Assembly (NCBI GenBank): GCA_903928515.1
Contig: CAIYRG010000040.1
Coordinates: 1-46,162, forward strand
Source of the DNA: an uncultured Alphaproteobacteria bacterium
GTDB lineage: Bacteria; Pseudomonadota; Alphaproteobacteria; Micropepsales; Micropepsaceae
Direction: 5' to 3'
DNA length: 46,162 nt
Part shown: positions 834 through 10,791 of the stretch, one piece after another
Layout: every line of letters starts with the position of its first letter
How positions within the stretch are numbered: the stretch's first letter is position 1
Notes under the pieces: generated by a model
Seen by the model: the letters and a program-made list of their open reading frames with translations, nothing else
Database searches by the model: none
What the model was told of the DNA's origin: nothing
Made by a program: the position numbers and the translations under genes

Positions 834-2063
834 TTACGCTAGGGATCGTTGTGTTCGCGCCAACACGATCAGCACCGCGATCATTGCCAGTATCAGGCCC
901 GGTATAGCGATGACGAGGACATCGCTGGCGCCGATGCCGGCCGCGAGCAGCAAACCCGCCGATAGCGGCCCTGCCACCGAACCACAGCGGCCGATGGCGA
1001 CAAGCCAGCCCATGCCGGTGCCGCGGATCAGCGGTTCGTAGTAATTCGGCGCTAGGCCATAGACGACAAGCTGCACGGCGGCGGTGAACATGCCCGCCCC
1101 CGTGACGCCGAGTGCTACCACAACGTCGCCCGTGCCGTAGGCCAGAAGCCCAAGCGAAATCATGACTGCGAGATACATCGCGATGATGGCCGCGCTCGCG
1201 CGTTTGGAATGATCCAGCAGATAACAGCTCAAGATCATTCCGCACATCGCGCCGAGATTGAACAGTATGAGGAAGGATGCGGCCGTGGCGCGGTCGTAGC
1301 CTTTGGCGATGAGCAGCGTCGGCAGCCAGCTCAACAATTCGTACAGCGCGAACAGTACGAAGAAGAACGACAACCACAGGCCAAGTGTTGGGATCAAACG
1401 CCCATCACCGAACAAGGCCTTGCCGATTGCTTGAGGCGCGACGCGCGCAACTTGCGCTTTGCGCTGCGCGAAGTCGCGCGATTCCGGCAAGCCCCACGCC
1501 AGCAGCGGCGCGATGAGAACCGGGCCTATACCGCCGATATAGAAGACGACGCGCCAGCCGTATTCGTCGATCAACAGCCAACCAATACCGGCAGCGACGG
1601 CACTTCCCACGGGCATGCCGCAATACATCAACCCCATCATTGTGCTGCGCAGGCGTGGCGGCACCGATTCCGATACCATGGCGACGAGATTGGGCATCGC
1701 GCCGCCCATGCCGACGCCTGTGAGAAAGCGCGCCAAGACGAGCGTTGCGAAACTCCAGGATTGCGCGGTGGCGATGGAGAAAAGCCCATACAATGTGACG
1801 CACAGCACGAGAACGAACTTGCGCCCGCGCCAGTCTGCCAAGCGTCCGCCAACCGCCGCACCGATAACAAGGCCGAATGTGCTGGCGCTCAAGACCCAAC
1901 CGAGCTGCGCCTTATCGAGCATGAACTCGCCCGCGATGCCTGGCGCGGCAATGCCCGCCGATTGCAGGTCAATGCCTTCCAGAAGCGCTGCGGCAAACCA
2001 CAGCGCGATGGTGAGCGCCGAGACATTGCGGGTTACGGACGCAGATATGGCGTTGTTCGACAA
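834..2063 (-). CDS. MFS transporter, aromatic acid:H+ symporter-like
   Basis: This 409-residue inner-membrane protein has the twelve hydrophobic segments of the major facilitator superfamily. The first membrane segment carries the Asp-containing ALLEGIDLQSAGIAAP motif typical of the aromatic acid/H+ symporter (AAHS) group. The loop 2-3 signature GGRLADWRGRKFVL follows, then RFLTGVGMGGAMPN in segment 4. Import of an aromatic or small organic acid is the family's usual role, but the substrate cannot be read from sequence. The start is TTG at 2063, preceded by GGGGGGAAG as ribosome site. A hydrolase of aromatic-degradation type converges on it, which weakly fits an aromatic catabolic role. A second AAHS-like transporter lies at 17380-18723. 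Confidence 0.85.
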   Translation of the reverse strand: MSNNAISASVTRNVSALTIALWFAAALLEGIDLQSAGIAAPGIAGEFMLDKAQLGWVLSASTFGLVIGAAVGGRLADWRGRKFVLVLCVTLYGLFSIATAQSWSFATLVLARFLTGVGMGGAMPNLVAMVSESVPPRLRSTMMGLMYCGMPVGSAVAAGIGWLLIDEYGWRVVFYIGGIGPVLIAPLLAWGLPESRDFAQRKAQVARVAPQAIGKALFGDGRLIPTLGLWLSFFFVLFALYELLSWLPTLLIAKGYDRATAASFLILFNLGAMCGMILSCYLLDHSKRASAAIIAMYLAVMISLGLLAYGTGDVVVALGVTGAGMFTAAVQLVVYGLAPNYYEPLIRGTGMGWLVAIGRCGSVAGPLSAGLLLAAGIGASDVLVIAIPGLILAMIAVLIVLARTQRSLA

Positions 2064-2199: not shown

Positions 2200-2628
2200 T
2201 TATTGCGGCGAGGAGATTTCCTTGGACTCCACGTCGGCATAACCGCCGGGCACAAACACGCCCACCGGATAGTATTTTCCGTTCGCCAGCGTGATGGCGG
2301 TGAACATGCCCTCGCCCAAACCGGCGCGCGCAGGGTTGTATTCCACCGTCACCTTGTCGCCGACTTTCATCATCGCCTTGCTCCAGCCGGATTTCTCGAG
2401 CCGCGAAGCGCCACCGCCTTCGAACTTCCAATCCTCGATCTTGCCGTTCGAGCGCACCACGGTGAGGTCAATCCACGAGTGCGGATTTTCCCAACCGAAG
2501 CCCTTGATCGTTCCCACCACATGGGTGCGTAGCGTGCGATCAAACGCGGCCTGCGAATGATGCGCGAAAGCCGGTGACAAAAGTGCCGACGCTGCAAGCA
2601 CTGCATTTATGAGGAGCAAGCGACGCAT
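2200..2628 (-). CDS. DUF6152 family small exported protein, copy 3 of 3
   Basis: This is a 142-residue protein of unknown function. Residues 1-22 form a signal peptide (MRRLLL, hydrophobic core, SPAFA). Cleavage after AFA would leave mature His-His-Ser at the N-terminus. Residues 46-52 read WENPHSW, with His50 exactly 27 residues after His23. The rest is predicted beta-rich, with a KVGDKVTVEYNPARAG segment. A longer frame reaches 2685, but ATG 2628 puts the signal peptide at the start and is preferred. It is the last of three tandem paralogues (3464-3051, 3043-2645, 2628-2200) with gaps of 7 and 16 bases, so they are probably one transcript. Family assignment is from recognition of the conserved HHS and NPHxWI pattern. 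Confidence 0.8.
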   Translation of the reverse strand: MRRLLLINAVLAASALLSPAFAHHSQAAFDRTLRTHVVGTIKGFGWENPHSWIDLTVVRSNGKIEDWKFEGGGASRLEKSGWSKAMMKVGDKVTVEYNPARAGLGEGMFTAITLANGKYYPVGVFVPGGYADVESKEISSPQ

Positions 2629-2644
2629 AAATCCCCAATCCAAT

Positions 2645-3043
2645 TCACCGTGATAAAAATCCCGGCGGCCCGAAATTCGAGACATAGGTTTTACCGTCCG
2701 GCGTCGTCACGCCATGGAACACACCGCCCGGCATGCCGTCGCGCCGCGGTCCATAATGCACGGTGACTTTGTCGCCTTCGTGCATGATCTCTTTGTTCCA
2801 GCCTGAGCGTTCTAAACGCCCGACGCCTGCACCTTCGAGATTCCACGCTTCCTGCGAGCCGTCGGGTTTGATCACGACCAGATGAATCCAGGCATGCGGA
2901 TTGGTCCACTCGAATTCTTTCACCGTGCCGCTGATGGCCAGATTCCCGGAGCGGTCGTACATCGCCATCGAATGATGCGCGAAGGCAGGCGAGGCGATGA
3001 AAGCCATGAAAGACACAATCCCAATGAGGCCGCGCTTCTGCAT
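2645..3043 (-). CDS. DUF6152 family small exported protein, copy 2 of 3
   Basis: This 132-residue paralogue of its two neighbours has unknown function. The signal peptide covers residues 1-22 and ends in SPAFA; the predicted mature start is HHSMAMYDR. The second conserved histidine is His50, in FEWTNPHAWIHL, again 27 residues after the first. The C-terminal half has HEGDKVTVHYGPRRDG and a GVFHGVTTPDGKTY segment shared with the other copies. ATG 3043 (MQKRGLIG) is chosen over an upstream in-frame codon at 3112 because it begins a textbook signal peptide and avoids a 62-base overlap with copy 1. It lies 7 bases downstream of copy 1. Confidence 0.82.
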   Translation of the reverse strand: MQKRGLIGIVSFMAFIASPAFAHHSMAMYDRSGNLAISGTVKEFEWTNPHAWIHLVVIKPDGSQEAWNLEGAGVGRLERSGWNKEIMHEGDKVTVHYGPRRDGMPGGVFHGVTTPDGKTYVSNFGPPGFLSR

Positions 3044-3050
3044 CGCAAGC

Positions 3051-3464
3051 CTATCGGAAAACCGCGTCGGGGCCGGCCTGATTGGCGAATGGCCCGACAT
3101 ATTTCTTGCCATCCGCCGTCACCACGATCTGAAACAGGCCGCCGACATGGCCATCGCTCCTGGGATTGTAGTGGATGGTGATCTTGTCGCCGGGGTGCAT
3201 CATCTCCTTGCTCCAACCCGTGCGCGACAGACCATAAACGCTGGTGCCTTCGAAATTCGCCTCTTCCATCGTGCCGTCCGGCTTGGGGATCACCACGTGA
3301 ATGAAGGAATGCGGGCTGGCCCAATCCCACGCCTTCACCGTTGCGATCACTTCCTTGTTCTGGCTGCGGTCGTACATCGCGAGCGAGTGATGGGCGGACG
3401 CGGGGGCCGCGGCGCATACAGCGGCTGCAAATCCGAAAAGCACGAACCGGATTGAGGGCGTCAT
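3051..3464 (-). CDS. DUF6152 family small exported protein, copy 1 of 3
   Basis: This 137-residue protein is the first gene of the tandem trio. The signal peptide covers residues 1-24 (MTPSIRF, hydrophobic core, APASA). The predicted mature start is HHSLAMYDR. The second conserved histidine is His52, in WDWASPHSFIHV, at the same 27-residue spacing seen in the other two. All three share LERSGW/LSRTGW, an MHxGDK or MKVGDK turn, and a terminal DGKxY strand. They are therefore ancient tandem duplicates that kept the same spacing while diverging elsewhere. Function is not known to me; the periplasm is the expected location. Confidence 0.82.
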   Translation of the reverse strand: MTPSIRFVLFGFAAAVCAAAPASAHHSLAMYDRSQNKEVIATVKAWDWASPHSFIHVVIPKPDGTMEEANFEGTSVYGLSRTGWSKEMMHPGDKITIHYNPRSDGHVGGLFQIVVTADGKKYVGPFANQAGPDAVFR

Positions 3465-6319: not shown

Positions 6320-7690
6320 ATGAACAAAATGGAACACGACCGGATTTCGTCGCCTCCCTACGCGCGCATACGCCGGCGTATTCGCTTCTCCTCGCCCCGC
6401 GTTTGGCTTGTGGTTCTGCTCGTCATCGCGGCAGGCGGCTACATGCTTTATGCCAACCCCTTCGGCAGCGGTGCTGCCGGCGGCGGTGCCGGTGGCCGTG
6501 GCGGGCGTGGGCAATTGCCGCCTCCGCCGGTCCATGTGGCGACAGCCGAGACCAAGGACGTTCCGGTCGTTATCCGCACCATCGGTACGGTGCTGGCCAA
6601 CGCCACGGTCCAGCTCAAATCCCAGATCGACGGCCAGATTTTCTCCGCGCCCTTCTCCGAAGGCCAGATGGTGAAAGCCGGCGATCTTCTGTTCAAGATC
6701 GACCCCGCGCCTTACGCCGCCGCCCTGCGCCAAGCGCAGGCGACGCTCGCCAAGGACGAAGCCCAGGCGACGGCTGCCAAGAGCGACGCCGAACGCAACG
6801 CCAGCATGGTGGCGCGCGGCATCGTCTCCGCCCAACAGAACGAAGCCTCCACCGCCACCGCTGCAGCCACCGCCGCCTCGGCGATGGCTGACCGCGCCAA
6901 TGTGGAAAAGGCCCAGCTTGAACTCGGCTACACGGAAATCCGCTCGCCCATCACCGGCAAGACCGGCCCGATCCTGGTGCATCCGGGCAACCTCGTGAAA
7001 GCCAACGACACGACCTATCTCGTGAGCATCACGCAGGTTCAGCCGCTCAAGATCTCCTTCTCGCTGCCGCAATCGGATGTGCCGATCCTGCAGGACCGCA
7101 TGAAGCAGGACGAATTGCAGGCCAGCCTGACGCTGCGCACCGATGCAGCACTCGCCGCCGTGCCGGTAAACAATGACGATATCAACGTGAAGGTCGACGT
7201 CCTCGGCAATGCGATCGATGCCCGCACCGGCACCATCGAATTGCGCGCGAACTACGACAATCCCGATCTGCGCCTCGTGCCGGGCGAACTCGTCGATGTG
7301 CGCGTGCGCCTCAACACACTGCGCAATACCGTGACCGTGCCGCCGGAGGCCGTGAATGTCGGCCCCAACGGCAATTTCGTCTACGTGGTCGGCGACGACA
7401 AAAAGGCCGAGATGCGCGCCGTGAAGGTGGCCTATCAGGACGACTTCCTGGCGGCGATCAGCGACGGCTTGAAGGCCGGCGAACGCGTCGTTACCGAAGG
7501 ACAATTGCGCGTGATCGCCGGTGCGCCGGTGCAGATCACGGGCGAACCCGGTCAAGGTGGACAAGGCGAAGGCGGCTTCCAGCGCGGCGGCGGCCAAGGC
7601 CACGGCCAGGGTGGCGGCCAACGTGGCAACGGCCAAGGCGCCAAAGATGCGCAGGGCAACGCGCAAGGTTCCGCGCCGACGAAGCCATGA
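6320..7690 (+). CDS. RND efflux membrane fusion protein (HlyD/MdtA-like)
   Basis: This 456-residue periplasmic adaptor links an inner-membrane RND pump to an outer-membrane channel. One membrane anchor lies at about residues 28-46 (VWLVVLLVIAAGGYMLY), followed by a Gly-rich linker. The lipoyl/barrel-sandwich half (QLKSQIDGQIFSAPFSEGQMV), an Ala-rich alpha-hairpin at about 130-200, and a beta-barrel with ELVDVRVRLNTLRNTVTVPPEAV follow. The C-terminal 45 residues are an unusual low-complexity Gly/Gln tail. ATG 6320 is used; ATG 6329 is an alternative and neither has a good ribosome site. The stop overlaps the next gene as ATGA, so the two are translationally coupled. No TolC-type gene is in the window. 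Confidence 0.92.
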   Translation: MNKMEHDRISSPPYARIRRRIRFSSPRVWLVVLLVIAAGGYMLYANPFGSGAAGGGAGGRGGRGQLPPPPVHVATAETKDVPVVIRTIGTVLANATVQLKSQIDGQIFSAPFSEGQMVKAGDLLFKIDPAPYAAALRQAQATLAKDEAQATAAKSDAERNASMVARGIVSAQQNEASTATAAATAASAMADRANVEKAQLELGYTEIRSPITGKTGPILVHPGNLVKANDTTYLVSITQVQPLKISFSLPQSDVPILQDRMKQDELQASLTLRTDAALAAVPVNNDDINVKVDVLGNAIDARTGTIELRANYDNPDLRLVPGELVDVRVRLNTLRNTVTVPPEAVNVGPNGNFVYVVGDDKKAEMRAVKVAYQDDFLAAISDGLKAGERVVTEGQLRVIAGAPVQITGEPGQGGQGEGGFQRGGGQGHGQGGGQRGNGQGAKDAQGNAQGSAPTKP

Positions 7691-10600
7691 ACCTCTCTGA
7701 GCCGTTCATCCGCCGCCCGGTGATGACAACGCTGGTGATGGCGGCGTTTCTGCTCACCGGTTCTCTCGGGTATTCGACGCTTCCGGTCAGCGAACTTCCC
7801 GCCATCGACTATCCGACGATCCAGATCCAGGCGATGTTGCCGGGCGCGGACGCCGATACGATGGCGTCCTCGGTGGCCACGCCGCTCGAGAACAAATTCT
7901 CCGGCATCGCATCCATCGACTCCATGTCGTCGCAGAGCCAAGCCGGTTACACGCGCATCACGCTGCAATTCAAGCTCGACCGCAACATCGATGCGGCCGC
8001 ACAGGACGTGCAATCGGCGCTCTCGTCCGCCGTGCGCCTGTTGCCGAAGGACATGACGACGCCGCCGTCGATCAACAAGGTCAATCCGGCGGACCAGCCC
8101 TTCATGTTCCTGGTGTTCTCGTCGAACACCATGCCGATCAGCCAAGTCGACGAATACATGGAGACGTTCGTCGGCCGCCAGATCTCAACGATTGACGGCG
8201 TGGCGCAAGTCCAGGTTTGGGGTGCGCAGAAGCCCGCGATCCGCGTGCAGATGGACCCCGACGCGCTCGCCGCGCGCGGCATCGGCGTGGACGAGCTTTC
8301 CAACGCCATCCAGGCCGCCAACGTGAATCAGGCGACCGGCACGCTGGATGGCCGCACCCGTGCGGCCATGATCCAGGCGCAAGGCCAGCTGTTCGATTCC
8401 AAAAGCTTCGGCCAACAGATCATTGCCTACCGCAACGGCGCACCGGTGCGCCTGAACGAAGTCGCGACCGTCATCGACTCCGTCGAGGTCAACAAGAACC
8501 TCAGCTTCTACAACGGCATCCCCGCTTTGATGCTCGCGGTGCAGCGCCAGCCGGGCGCCAACACGGTGGCTGTGGCGGATACGATCTTCAAATTGCTGCC
8601 TGCGCTGCAGAAGCAGTTGCCGCAGGGCATCAGCGTGCATATCGGCTACGACCAGAGCGCCTCCATCCGCGCCGGTGTGAAAGACGTGCAGCTCACCCTG
8701 CTCGTTTCGGCCCTGATGGTCATCGCGGTGATCTTCATCTTCCTGCGCACGCCCTCGGCCACGCTCATCCCCACCGCCACGCTGCCCATCAGCGTGATCG
8801 GCACGTTCGGCGTGATGGGGTTCCTGGGTTACTCGATCGACAATCTGTCGTTGATGGCGCTGACGCTGGCCGTCACCTTCATCGTCGACGACGCCATCGT
8901 GATGCTCGAGAACATCATGCGGCATGTCGAAATGGGCGAAGACCCTTACGCCGCCGCGCTGGCCGGCTCAAAGGAAGTGTCCTTCACCATCCTGTCCATG
9001 ACGCTGTCGCTGGCCTCGGTGTTCATCCCGTTCCTGTTCATGGCGGGCATTCTCGGACGTCTGCTGCACGAATTCGCGGTGGTCATCGTGGTGGCGATCC
9101 TGATTTCCGGCCTCGTGTCGGTGACGCTCACGCCCATGATGTGCTCGCGCCTCATCAAATCGCGCGAAGAAGAAAGCCACGTCCAACACAACAGGTTCTA
9201 TCGCGCGAGCGAGGCCACGTTCGACGCCATACAGCGCGGCTACGACGCGAGCCTTGCCTGGTCGATGCACCACAAGCGCTTCATTCTCGGCACGTTCTTC
9301 GCCAGTCTCATCGCGACGGTGCTGGCCTATATGTGGACGCCACAGGATTTCATTCCCGCGACCGATAACGATTCCATCATCGGTTTCACGCAAGGCTCGA
9401 CCGGCATCTCCTTCGCCGAAATGCTGCGGCTGCAGAATCAAGCCGCCGCGATCGTGCAGAAAAATCCAAACATCGAAGCCGTCATGTCGAATGCCGGTTC
9501 GAACCAGTCGAACGTCTACAACAACGGCCAATTCCGCATCCGGCTGAAGCCGCGCAATCAGCGCAAGGACGGCGTGGACGCCGTCATGCAGCAATTGCGC
9601 GGTCCGCTGGCTCGCCTGCCCGGCATCAAGACGTTTCTGCAAAATCCGCCCTCAATCAAAATCGGCGGCATGCAAAGCCGTGCGTCCTACCAATACACGC
9701 TGCAAGGCATCGACCCTGCCCTGCTTCAGGCGACCGCTTTGCGCATGCAGGACGCCCTCGCCACCACACGCGGCTTCATCGACGTGACAAGCGATTACGA
9801 CCCTTCCACGCCGTCGGTGACCGTGGGCATCAACCGCGACCGCGCGGCGGCGTTGGGCGTTTCGGAAACCGAAGTGGAAGGCGCGCTCGGCGATGCCTTT
9901 GGCGGACAGCAGATTTCCACCATCTTCACCCCGGCCGATCAGTTCAAAGTGATCCTGGAAGTGCTGCCCAAATATCAGGGCAGCGACGACTCGCTTTCAC
10001 ACCTTTATCTGTCGAGCACGAGCGGCACACTTGTGCCCCTGTCAGCCGTCACCGAAATCGGCCACGGCAGCACGGTGGTCTCGCAAAACCATTTGAGCCA
10101 GATTCCGGCGATCACGCTGTCGTTCAACCTCACGCCGGGCACGCCGCTGTCGCAGGCTGTGACATCGATCCAGGACGTGGAAAGCAAGATCGATCTCCCG
10201 GATTCGATTCAAGGCAGCTTCCAGGGCACGGCGCAGGCGTTCCAAAGCTCCGTGAAGGGCATGGGCCTGCTGATCATCGCCGCCATTCTGGCCGTCTATA
10301 TCGTGCTCGGCATTCTGTATGAGAGCTTCATCCACCCCCTGACGATTTTGTCGGGCCTTCCGGCGGCGGCCGTGGGCGCGCTCATCACGCTGGCGGTCTT
10401 CCAAGTGCCGCTGAGCCTCTATGCCTTCGTCGGCATGATTATGCTCATCGGTCTGGTGAAGAAGAACGCGATCATGATGATCGACTTCGCCCTCGCCCGG
10501 CAACGCGTGGACGGCCACTCGGCCGAAGACGCCATCCAGGAAGCCGCGCGCGTGCGCTTCCGTCCCATTCTGATGACGACGATGGCAGCCTTGTTCGGCA

Positions 10601-10791
10601 CGCTTCCCATCGCGCTCGGCATCGGCGCCGGTGGCGAAAGCCGCCAGCCGCTGGGCCTCGCGGTTGTGGGCGGGTTGCTGCTGTCACAGACGCTGACGCT
10701 CTACATCACGCCGGTGCTCTACTACTACCTCGACGGCTTGGCTGCGCGCCGTAGCCGCAAGCACCGCGCCATTCCGGTCAGCGCGGAATAA
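7687..10791 (+). CDS. RND efflux pump, inner-membrane transporter (MdtB/AcrB-like)
   Basis: This 1034-residue proton-driven efflux pump of the HAE1 family is full length. It starts with NLSEPFIRRPVMTTLVM, the cytoplasmic lead-in and first membrane segment. The two essential aspartates of segment 4 are present in TFIVDDAIVMLEN, and the segment 10 lysine in GLVKKNAIMMIDFA. Two large periplasmic loops with porter subdomains lie at about 30-330 and 560-860. The gene overlaps the adaptor gene by 4 bases. Multidrug export is the usual role of the family; the particular substrate is unknown. Confidence 0.95.
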   Translation: MNLSEPFIRRPVMTTLVMAAFLLTGSLGYSTLPVSELPAIDYPTIQIQAMLPGADADTMASSVATPLENKFSGIASIDSMSSQSQAGYTRITLQFKLDRNIDAAAQDVQSALSSAVRLLPKDMTTPPSINKVNPADQPFMFLVFSSNTMPISQVDEYMETFVGRQISTIDGVAQVQVWGAQKPAIRVQMDPDALAARGIGVDELSNAIQAANVNQATGTLDGRTRAAMIQAQGQLFDSKSFGQQIIAYRNGAPVRLNEVATVIDSVEVNKNLSFYNGIPALMLAVQRQPGANTVAVADTIFKLLPALQKQLPQGISVHIGYDQSASIRAGVKDVQLTLLVSALMVIAVIFIFLRTPSATLIPTATLPISVIGTFGVMGFLGYSIDNLSLMALTLAVTFIVDDAIVMLENIMRHVEMGEDPYAAALAGSKEVSFTILSMTLSLASVFIPFLFMAGILGRLLHEFAVVIVVAILISGLVSVTLTPMMCSRLIKSREEESHVQHNRFYRASEATFDAIQRGYDASLAWSMHHKRFILGTFFASLIATVLAYMWTPQDFIPATDNDSIIGFTQGSTGISFAEMLRLQNQAAAIVQKNPNIEAVMSNAGSNQSNVYNNGQFRIRLKPRNQRKDGVDAVMQQLRGPLARLPGIKTFLQNPPSIKIGGMQSRASYQYTLQGIDPALLQATALRMQDALATTRGFIDVTSDYDPSTPSVTVGINRDRAAALGVSETEVEGALGDAFGGQQISTIFTPADQFKVILEVLPKYQGSDDSLSHLYLSSTSGTLVPLSAVTEIGHGSTVVSQNHLSQIPAITLSFNLTPGTPLSQAVTSIQDVESKIDLPDSIQGSFQGTAQAFQSSVKGMGLLIIAAILAVYIVLGILYESFIHPLTILSGLPAAAVGALITLAVFQVPLSLYAFVGMIMLIGLVKKNAIMMIDFALARQRVDGHSAEDAIQEAARVRFRPILMTTMAALFGTLPIALGIGAGGESRQPLGLAVVGGLLLSQTLTLYITPVLYYYLDGLAARRSRKHRAIPVSAE

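Follow-up and report, generated by a model that had tools for sequence, protein, structure and literature searches.

DUF6152 proteins with an invariant His-His amino terminus: a candidate OB-fold metalloprotein family with two partner systems

The window analysed here is a stretch of 46,162 nucleotides (contig CAIYRG010000040.1, assembly GCA_903928515.1) from an uncultured alphaproteobacterium of the family Micropepsaceae. It carries three tandem genes on the minus strand, which in the order of their transcription encode DUF6152 protein C (3051..3464), protein B (2645..3043) and protein A (2200..2631). The starts of genes A and B were trimmed from 2685 to 2631 and from 3112 to 3043, respectively, and the spacers between the genes measure 7 bp (C/B) and 13 bp (B/A). 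An earlier note on this DNA had assigned all three products to DUF6152, and all three match PF19649 far above its gathering cut-off of 27 bits (C, E 2.1e-26, 92 bits; B, E 1.9e-33, 115 bits; A, E 2.1e-29, 102 bits). Mature A and mature C share 45% and 52% identity with mature B. An MFS transporter gene (834..2063, minus strand; MFS_1, E 3.2e-45) lies 136 bp downstream of gene A and may possibly share one transcript with it. Elsewhere in the window (6320-10791), a gene for a membrane-fusion-like protein is followed by one for a 1034-aa RND-type transporter, adjacent genes which by eye were judged to be of efflux type.

As read from the sequence, protein C has a 24-aa signal peptide ending in APASA, and proteins B and A each have a 22-aa signal peptide ending in SPAFA. 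The mature chains would all begin with HHS directly after these endings, as the earlier note had read them, and they contain SPHSFI in C, NPHAWI in B and NPHSWI in A. The codons of mature His1 and His2 lie on the minus strand at 3387..3392 in protein C, immediately following the predicted cleavage site, and at 2972..2977 in protein B and 2560..2565 in protein A, placed there by sequence and family conservation. The Pro-His histidine is mature residue 28 in A, B and C, 26 residues past His2. The 27-residue distance to the first histidine reported before is therefore exact in the window copies, but family-wide the distance to the Pro-His motif varies by a few residues. A Pfam scan of A, B and C gave no match up to E 1 to the CopC profile (PF04234) or to an LPMO domain (AA families).

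DUF6152 relatives were gathered by profile search of genomes and by similarity search, and conservation was scored on those 295 distinct sequences that align to the PF19649 model from its first columns on. His1 and His2 are present in 295 of 295 sequences, and His28 and P27 each in 294, which amounts to a single loss among the 885 histidine positions checked. The invariance suggested before for the first and the Pro-His histidine is thus borne out across the family without any loss of His1, and His2, a point underplayed at the time, is as invariant as His1. G59 and G68, like P27, are about as conserved as the histidines. Four DUF6152 matches start later in the model. One contig-edge fragment accounts for two of them and a mis-paired ORF for the third, and the fourth, a divergent member, still reads AHH, so the selection step concealed no losses of histidine. 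The HH/His28 pattern is far beyond chance.

The residues in front of His1 suit export. At position -1 the 295 sequences have Ala (256), Ser (24), Pro (8), Gly (6) or Cys (1), so that 97% carry a residue suiting signal peptidase I under the -3/-1 rule; position -3 is Ala in 229 (78%), and position -2 is free. A hydrophobic stretch lies upstream of the cleavage site in 290 of 292. To judge from sequence, this pattern is the one expected of a signal peptidase I cut immediately ahead of His1, in agreement with the cleavage site on which the earlier note had staked its proposal. A crude signal-peptide rule placed His after the predicted site in 31 of 40 DUF6152 proteins; of 195 further proteins at the same loci that are predicted to be exported, only 4 have His at +1. 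The eight sequences with Pro at -1 form one clade with near-identical motifs (loci L117, L104, L127, L124, L109, L152, L148 and L131) in which cleavage before His1, and hence a free His1 amine, appears unlikely. Since this clade keeps HH, the histidines may matter even where the His1 amine is not free; the clade offers a natural test of the importance of that amine.

AlphaFold2 modelling of mature B with 79 relatives gave a pLDDT of 90.7 and a pTM of 0.83. The solved structures nearest to the model are the OB-folds of PriB and SSB (Z about 8-9 over about 80 residues), and a CcmE chain is among its Foldseek matches. The mature DUF6152 chain is accordingly predicted to be an OB-fold, unlike the beta-sandwich of LPMOs and CopC, as far as the listed matches go. 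A sequence search of the PDB with protein B and the family profile yielded no credible homologue; matches to lactonase/lyase and adhesin entries were dropped, as no stretch of them passes on its own. In a mean-field coevolution analysis the top pairs are beta hairpins (20-34, 23-32, 34-44, 37-43, 76-87 and 78-84), from which we conclude that the method works on this family. Residue 86 couples with residues 4, 7 and 29, the last of which adjoins His28, and these pairs persist under three weightings, although the signals are weak (98 columns with an effective sequence number of 68-236) and could in part reflect phylogeny. They are compatible with a placement of the N-terminus and His28 on one face and lend it weak support. 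The raw DCA pairs 1-28 and 2-28 were discarded: with next to no variation in these columns, their signal stems from gaps in the row of a fragment.

DUF6152 genes occur in two largely exclusive contexts, the HHG type with DUF6644 and the HHS/HHA type with a calycin-like barrel. Counted on the DUF6152 genes with enough flanking sequence, DUF6644 lies directly downstream of 45 of 56 HHG-type genes and of 6 of 163 genes of the HHS/HHA types. The DUF6152-DUF6644 pair is also found in annotated records of Paracoccus, Comamonas and Sinorhizobium. In Paracoccus denitrificans PD1222 it is encoded by PDEN_RS23965-23970, and in Sinorhizobium the partner is annotated as DUF2214 and is DUF6644 by Pfam. DUF6644 is a small membrane protein with invariant His, Lys, Trp and Gly and a near-invariant Arg, and it shows a weak match to DUF2214 (E 0.0015). 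A proven homology to CopD was considered and is given no support by profile comparison, where hhalign, run on small alignments, returned probabilities of 0.8% against CopD and 2.9% against short CopD-like (HemJ-type) proteins. By analogy, the HHG-DUF6644 unit looks like a hand-off of metal or electrons to a membrane protein.

The partner of the HHS/HHA type is an exported family for which neither Pfam nor NCBIfam holds a model. A gene of this family lies within 900 bp on the same strand for 90 of 163 HHS/HHA genes as compared to 4 of 56 HHG genes; 59 of 124 HHS copies are without any same-strand partner. The two domains are fused, the DUF6152 part first, in at least seven proteins, among them the one encoded at L138 5261-6379, and the pairing is also found on plasmids of Novosphingobium and Croceibacterium. 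The model of the partner (pLDDT 93.6) matches FABP/lipocalin-type structures (best Z 8.7, rmsd 3.6, 122 residues), a score at which only the general arrangement is safe, and a calycin-like fold is predicted on this basis; among solved structures there was no credible sequence match. TonB-dependent/carboxypeptidase-regulatory outer-membrane proteins recur beside DUF6152-barrel pairs in Acidobacteria and Croceibacterium (L138, 1743-5153; L210, 9702-12161). Neither DUF6644 nor a barrel gene adjoins the window triplet. The earlier suggestion that the copies serve different partners is plausible because two partner types exist in the family, but it finds no counterpart beside the triplet itself.

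Both families are amplified in the genus of the window. The window's genome contains 22 DUF6152 matches, and the genus members G002, G003, G004 and G006 contain 19-20 each; 11 of 12 other genomes of the same taxonomic family have none. The barrel family is present in 22-138 copies per genome across the genus, with 31 in the window's genome, and reaches 119 (G002), 138 (G003) and 103 (G005) copies in single genomes of 2.7-3.9 Mb (e.g. L198, L193); none was found in the six sister-genus genomes searched. Among the relatives searched, DUF6152 and the barrel are amplified only in the window's genus, and the sister genera are essentially devoid of them. In the window's genome the immediate neighbour is a barrel gene for 13 of 20 DUF6152 genes, where about 0.5 would be expected by chance, as estimated from 31 barrel copies in 3.1 Mb.

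A tree built on 106 sequences from the genus, its details uncertain because of the few alignment columns, unites the three window genes in one clade with an SH-aLRT value of 90, below the 95 mark. This clade adjoins single genes from each of G002, G003 and G005; a separate clade (95) groups 16 other DUF6152 copies of the window's genome. As judged from this tree, the window triplet arose by local duplication of a gene of which three congeners carry only one copy. The triplication noted before is real, but it makes up only a small part of the genus-wide amplification, and we rejected it as the main story in favour of a lineage-specific clade inside a larger expansion.

A metal site at the amino terminus would bring these features together. 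A chelate of the His1 amine and imidazole binds transition metals whatever the fold (PMC12537917), and with a second imidazole it constitutes the copper histidine brace (PMC10952591). The sequence prerequisites of such a brace, an exposed His1 and a second conserved histidine, are all found in DUF6152, as read from the alignment. We infer the following on metal binding and its geometry, on which metal is bound and on the biochemical function. Signal peptidase I would expose the His-His amino terminus of a small periplasmic OB-fold protein. The His1 amine and imidazole, the invariant His28 and possibly His2 would then bind a single transition-metal ion at the surface, most likely copper, so that a new scaffold would carry a site akin to the histidine brace. 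The HHG type would probably pass metal or electrons to DUF6644, as is thought for CopC-CopD or Ang-HupE. The HHS/HHA type, including the three window proteins, would act with exported calycin-like barrels, which probably bind hydrophobic ligands and are co-amplified with it in the genus. To this joint reading, an exported OB-fold protein with an N-terminal-His site most likely for copper and two partner systems, we give about an even chance. The interpretation of the earlier note, small periplasmic copper proteins, is partly supported.

Several known systems resemble this arrangement. CopC-CopD has a similar layout to the HHG type with DUF6644, an exported His1 protein and a membrane protein, but the window proteins lack a CopC match and are predicted to be OB-folds. 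LPMOs and pMMO use the His1 amine and side chain and a second histidine, as would DUF6152, and LPMOs are multi-copy in some fungi, which recalls the DUF6152 copy number; the predicted fold of DUF6152 differs, and it comes without a known substrate or activity. CusF and CcmE are periplasmic OB-fold carriers of metal or haem, exported like DUF6152, but the window proteins have no sequence match to them in the Pfam scan. CusF binds Cu(I)/Ag(I) via His, Met and Trp side chains and not via an N-terminal His. Also similar are the domains described in PMC12537917, namely the Ang-1/Ang-2 anglerases, an N-terminal-His family that binds copper, and DUF4198 and DUF6702. As is predicted for DUF6152, these are small exported domains in which removal of the signal peptide uncovers His1. 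The coupling of Ang domains to a membrane permease parallels that of the HHG type to DUF6644; however, Ang is fused to HupE/UreJ, whereas DUF6152 is encoded as a gene apart from DUF6644, and Ang-1 is an immunoglobulin-like beta-sandwich, as compared to the predicted OB-fold of DUF6152 with its His-His and invariant third histidine (PMC12537917).

The same site could serve another metal. That DUF6152 is a scavenger or delivery protein for Ni, Co or Zn with no copper brace is fairly unlikely in our estimate, though Ni is the preferred metal of DUF4198 and gives DUF6702 a large stabilising shift (PMC12537917), and the neighbourhoods of the DUF6152 genes hold no pointer to copper. No recurrent copper-homeostasis family is present among 114 proteins neighbouring the DUF6152 genes of the genus, and CopC had no match in genomes G004 and G006, despite their approximately 19 DUF6152 genes. 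Copper is favoured by the amine-imidazole chelate, as is usual under the Irving-Williams series (PMC10952591), and by the resemblance of two or three conserved imidazoles plus an amine to copper sites. Alternatively, there might be no metal site at all, with His-His and Asn-Pro-His serving structure or protein docking in an OB-fold protein that binds a ligand or partner. OB-folds are common binding modules, P27, G59 and G68 are conserved about as strongly as the histidines, and HH is retained in the Pro(-1) clade, whose His1 amine is not expected to be free; yet residues with a purely structural role would seldom be kept as completely as these three histidines, two of them at the cleavage point, and few other exported proteins have His at +1, which makes this explanation unlikely.

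About 20 copies per genome would be odd for a metal chaperone. Together with the lack of recurrent copper neighbours, the independence from CopC and the linkage to barrels, the paralogue number makes plain metal homeostasis less convincing for the HHS type; substrate-linked chemistry and the metal-loading of many partners both fit. The former could take the form of a copper-dependent oxygenase or peroxygenase module, in which the barrel presents hydrophobic compounds for oxidation by the His-brace OB domain, with one substrate per paralogue pair, a proposal that draws on fusion and adjacency to a lipophile-binding-type barrel, on the TonB-type outer-membrane proteins near some copies and on a parallel amplification recalling the large LPMO sets of fungi (22 AA9 LPMOs in Schizophyllum commune), but which is quite improbable given that the closest bacterial N-terminal-His proteins are only weak oxidases (PMC12537917), that many HHS copies stand without a same-strand partner and that the HHG type has a membrane partner instead. 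Equally doubtful is the broader idea that DUF6152, as a hitherto unrecognised OB-fold copper family with a His-brace-like site, radiated in the genus with up to more than 100 exported barrels for a modular periplasmic oxidation or handling of hydrophobic compounds, in which the barrel sets the substrate.

Returning to the N-terminal-His metal site, such a site on an OB-fold would, if true, extend the histidine-brace idea to a new scaffold. No mention of DUF6152 or DUF6644 was found in the literature searched, and DUF6152 (PF19649) was not found in the searched parts of PMC12537917; what is likely to be new is a family of OB-fold metalloproteins with an N-terminal His and two kinds of partner, as far as sequence and models indicate. 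The split between two partners and the link to a large unmodelled barrel family provide testable handles on several unexplained protein families, and both DUF6152 and DUF6644 occur in cultured bacteria, e.g. Paracoccus denitrificans and Sinorhizobium meliloti. No DUF6152 relative was found in viral contigs. Two of the loci (L101, L111) belong to a record titled Klebsiella pneumoniae isolate MoH-23oct19-118; their DUF6152 genes resemble those of uncultured Gammaproteobacteria, and the record is probably a mislabelled MAG.
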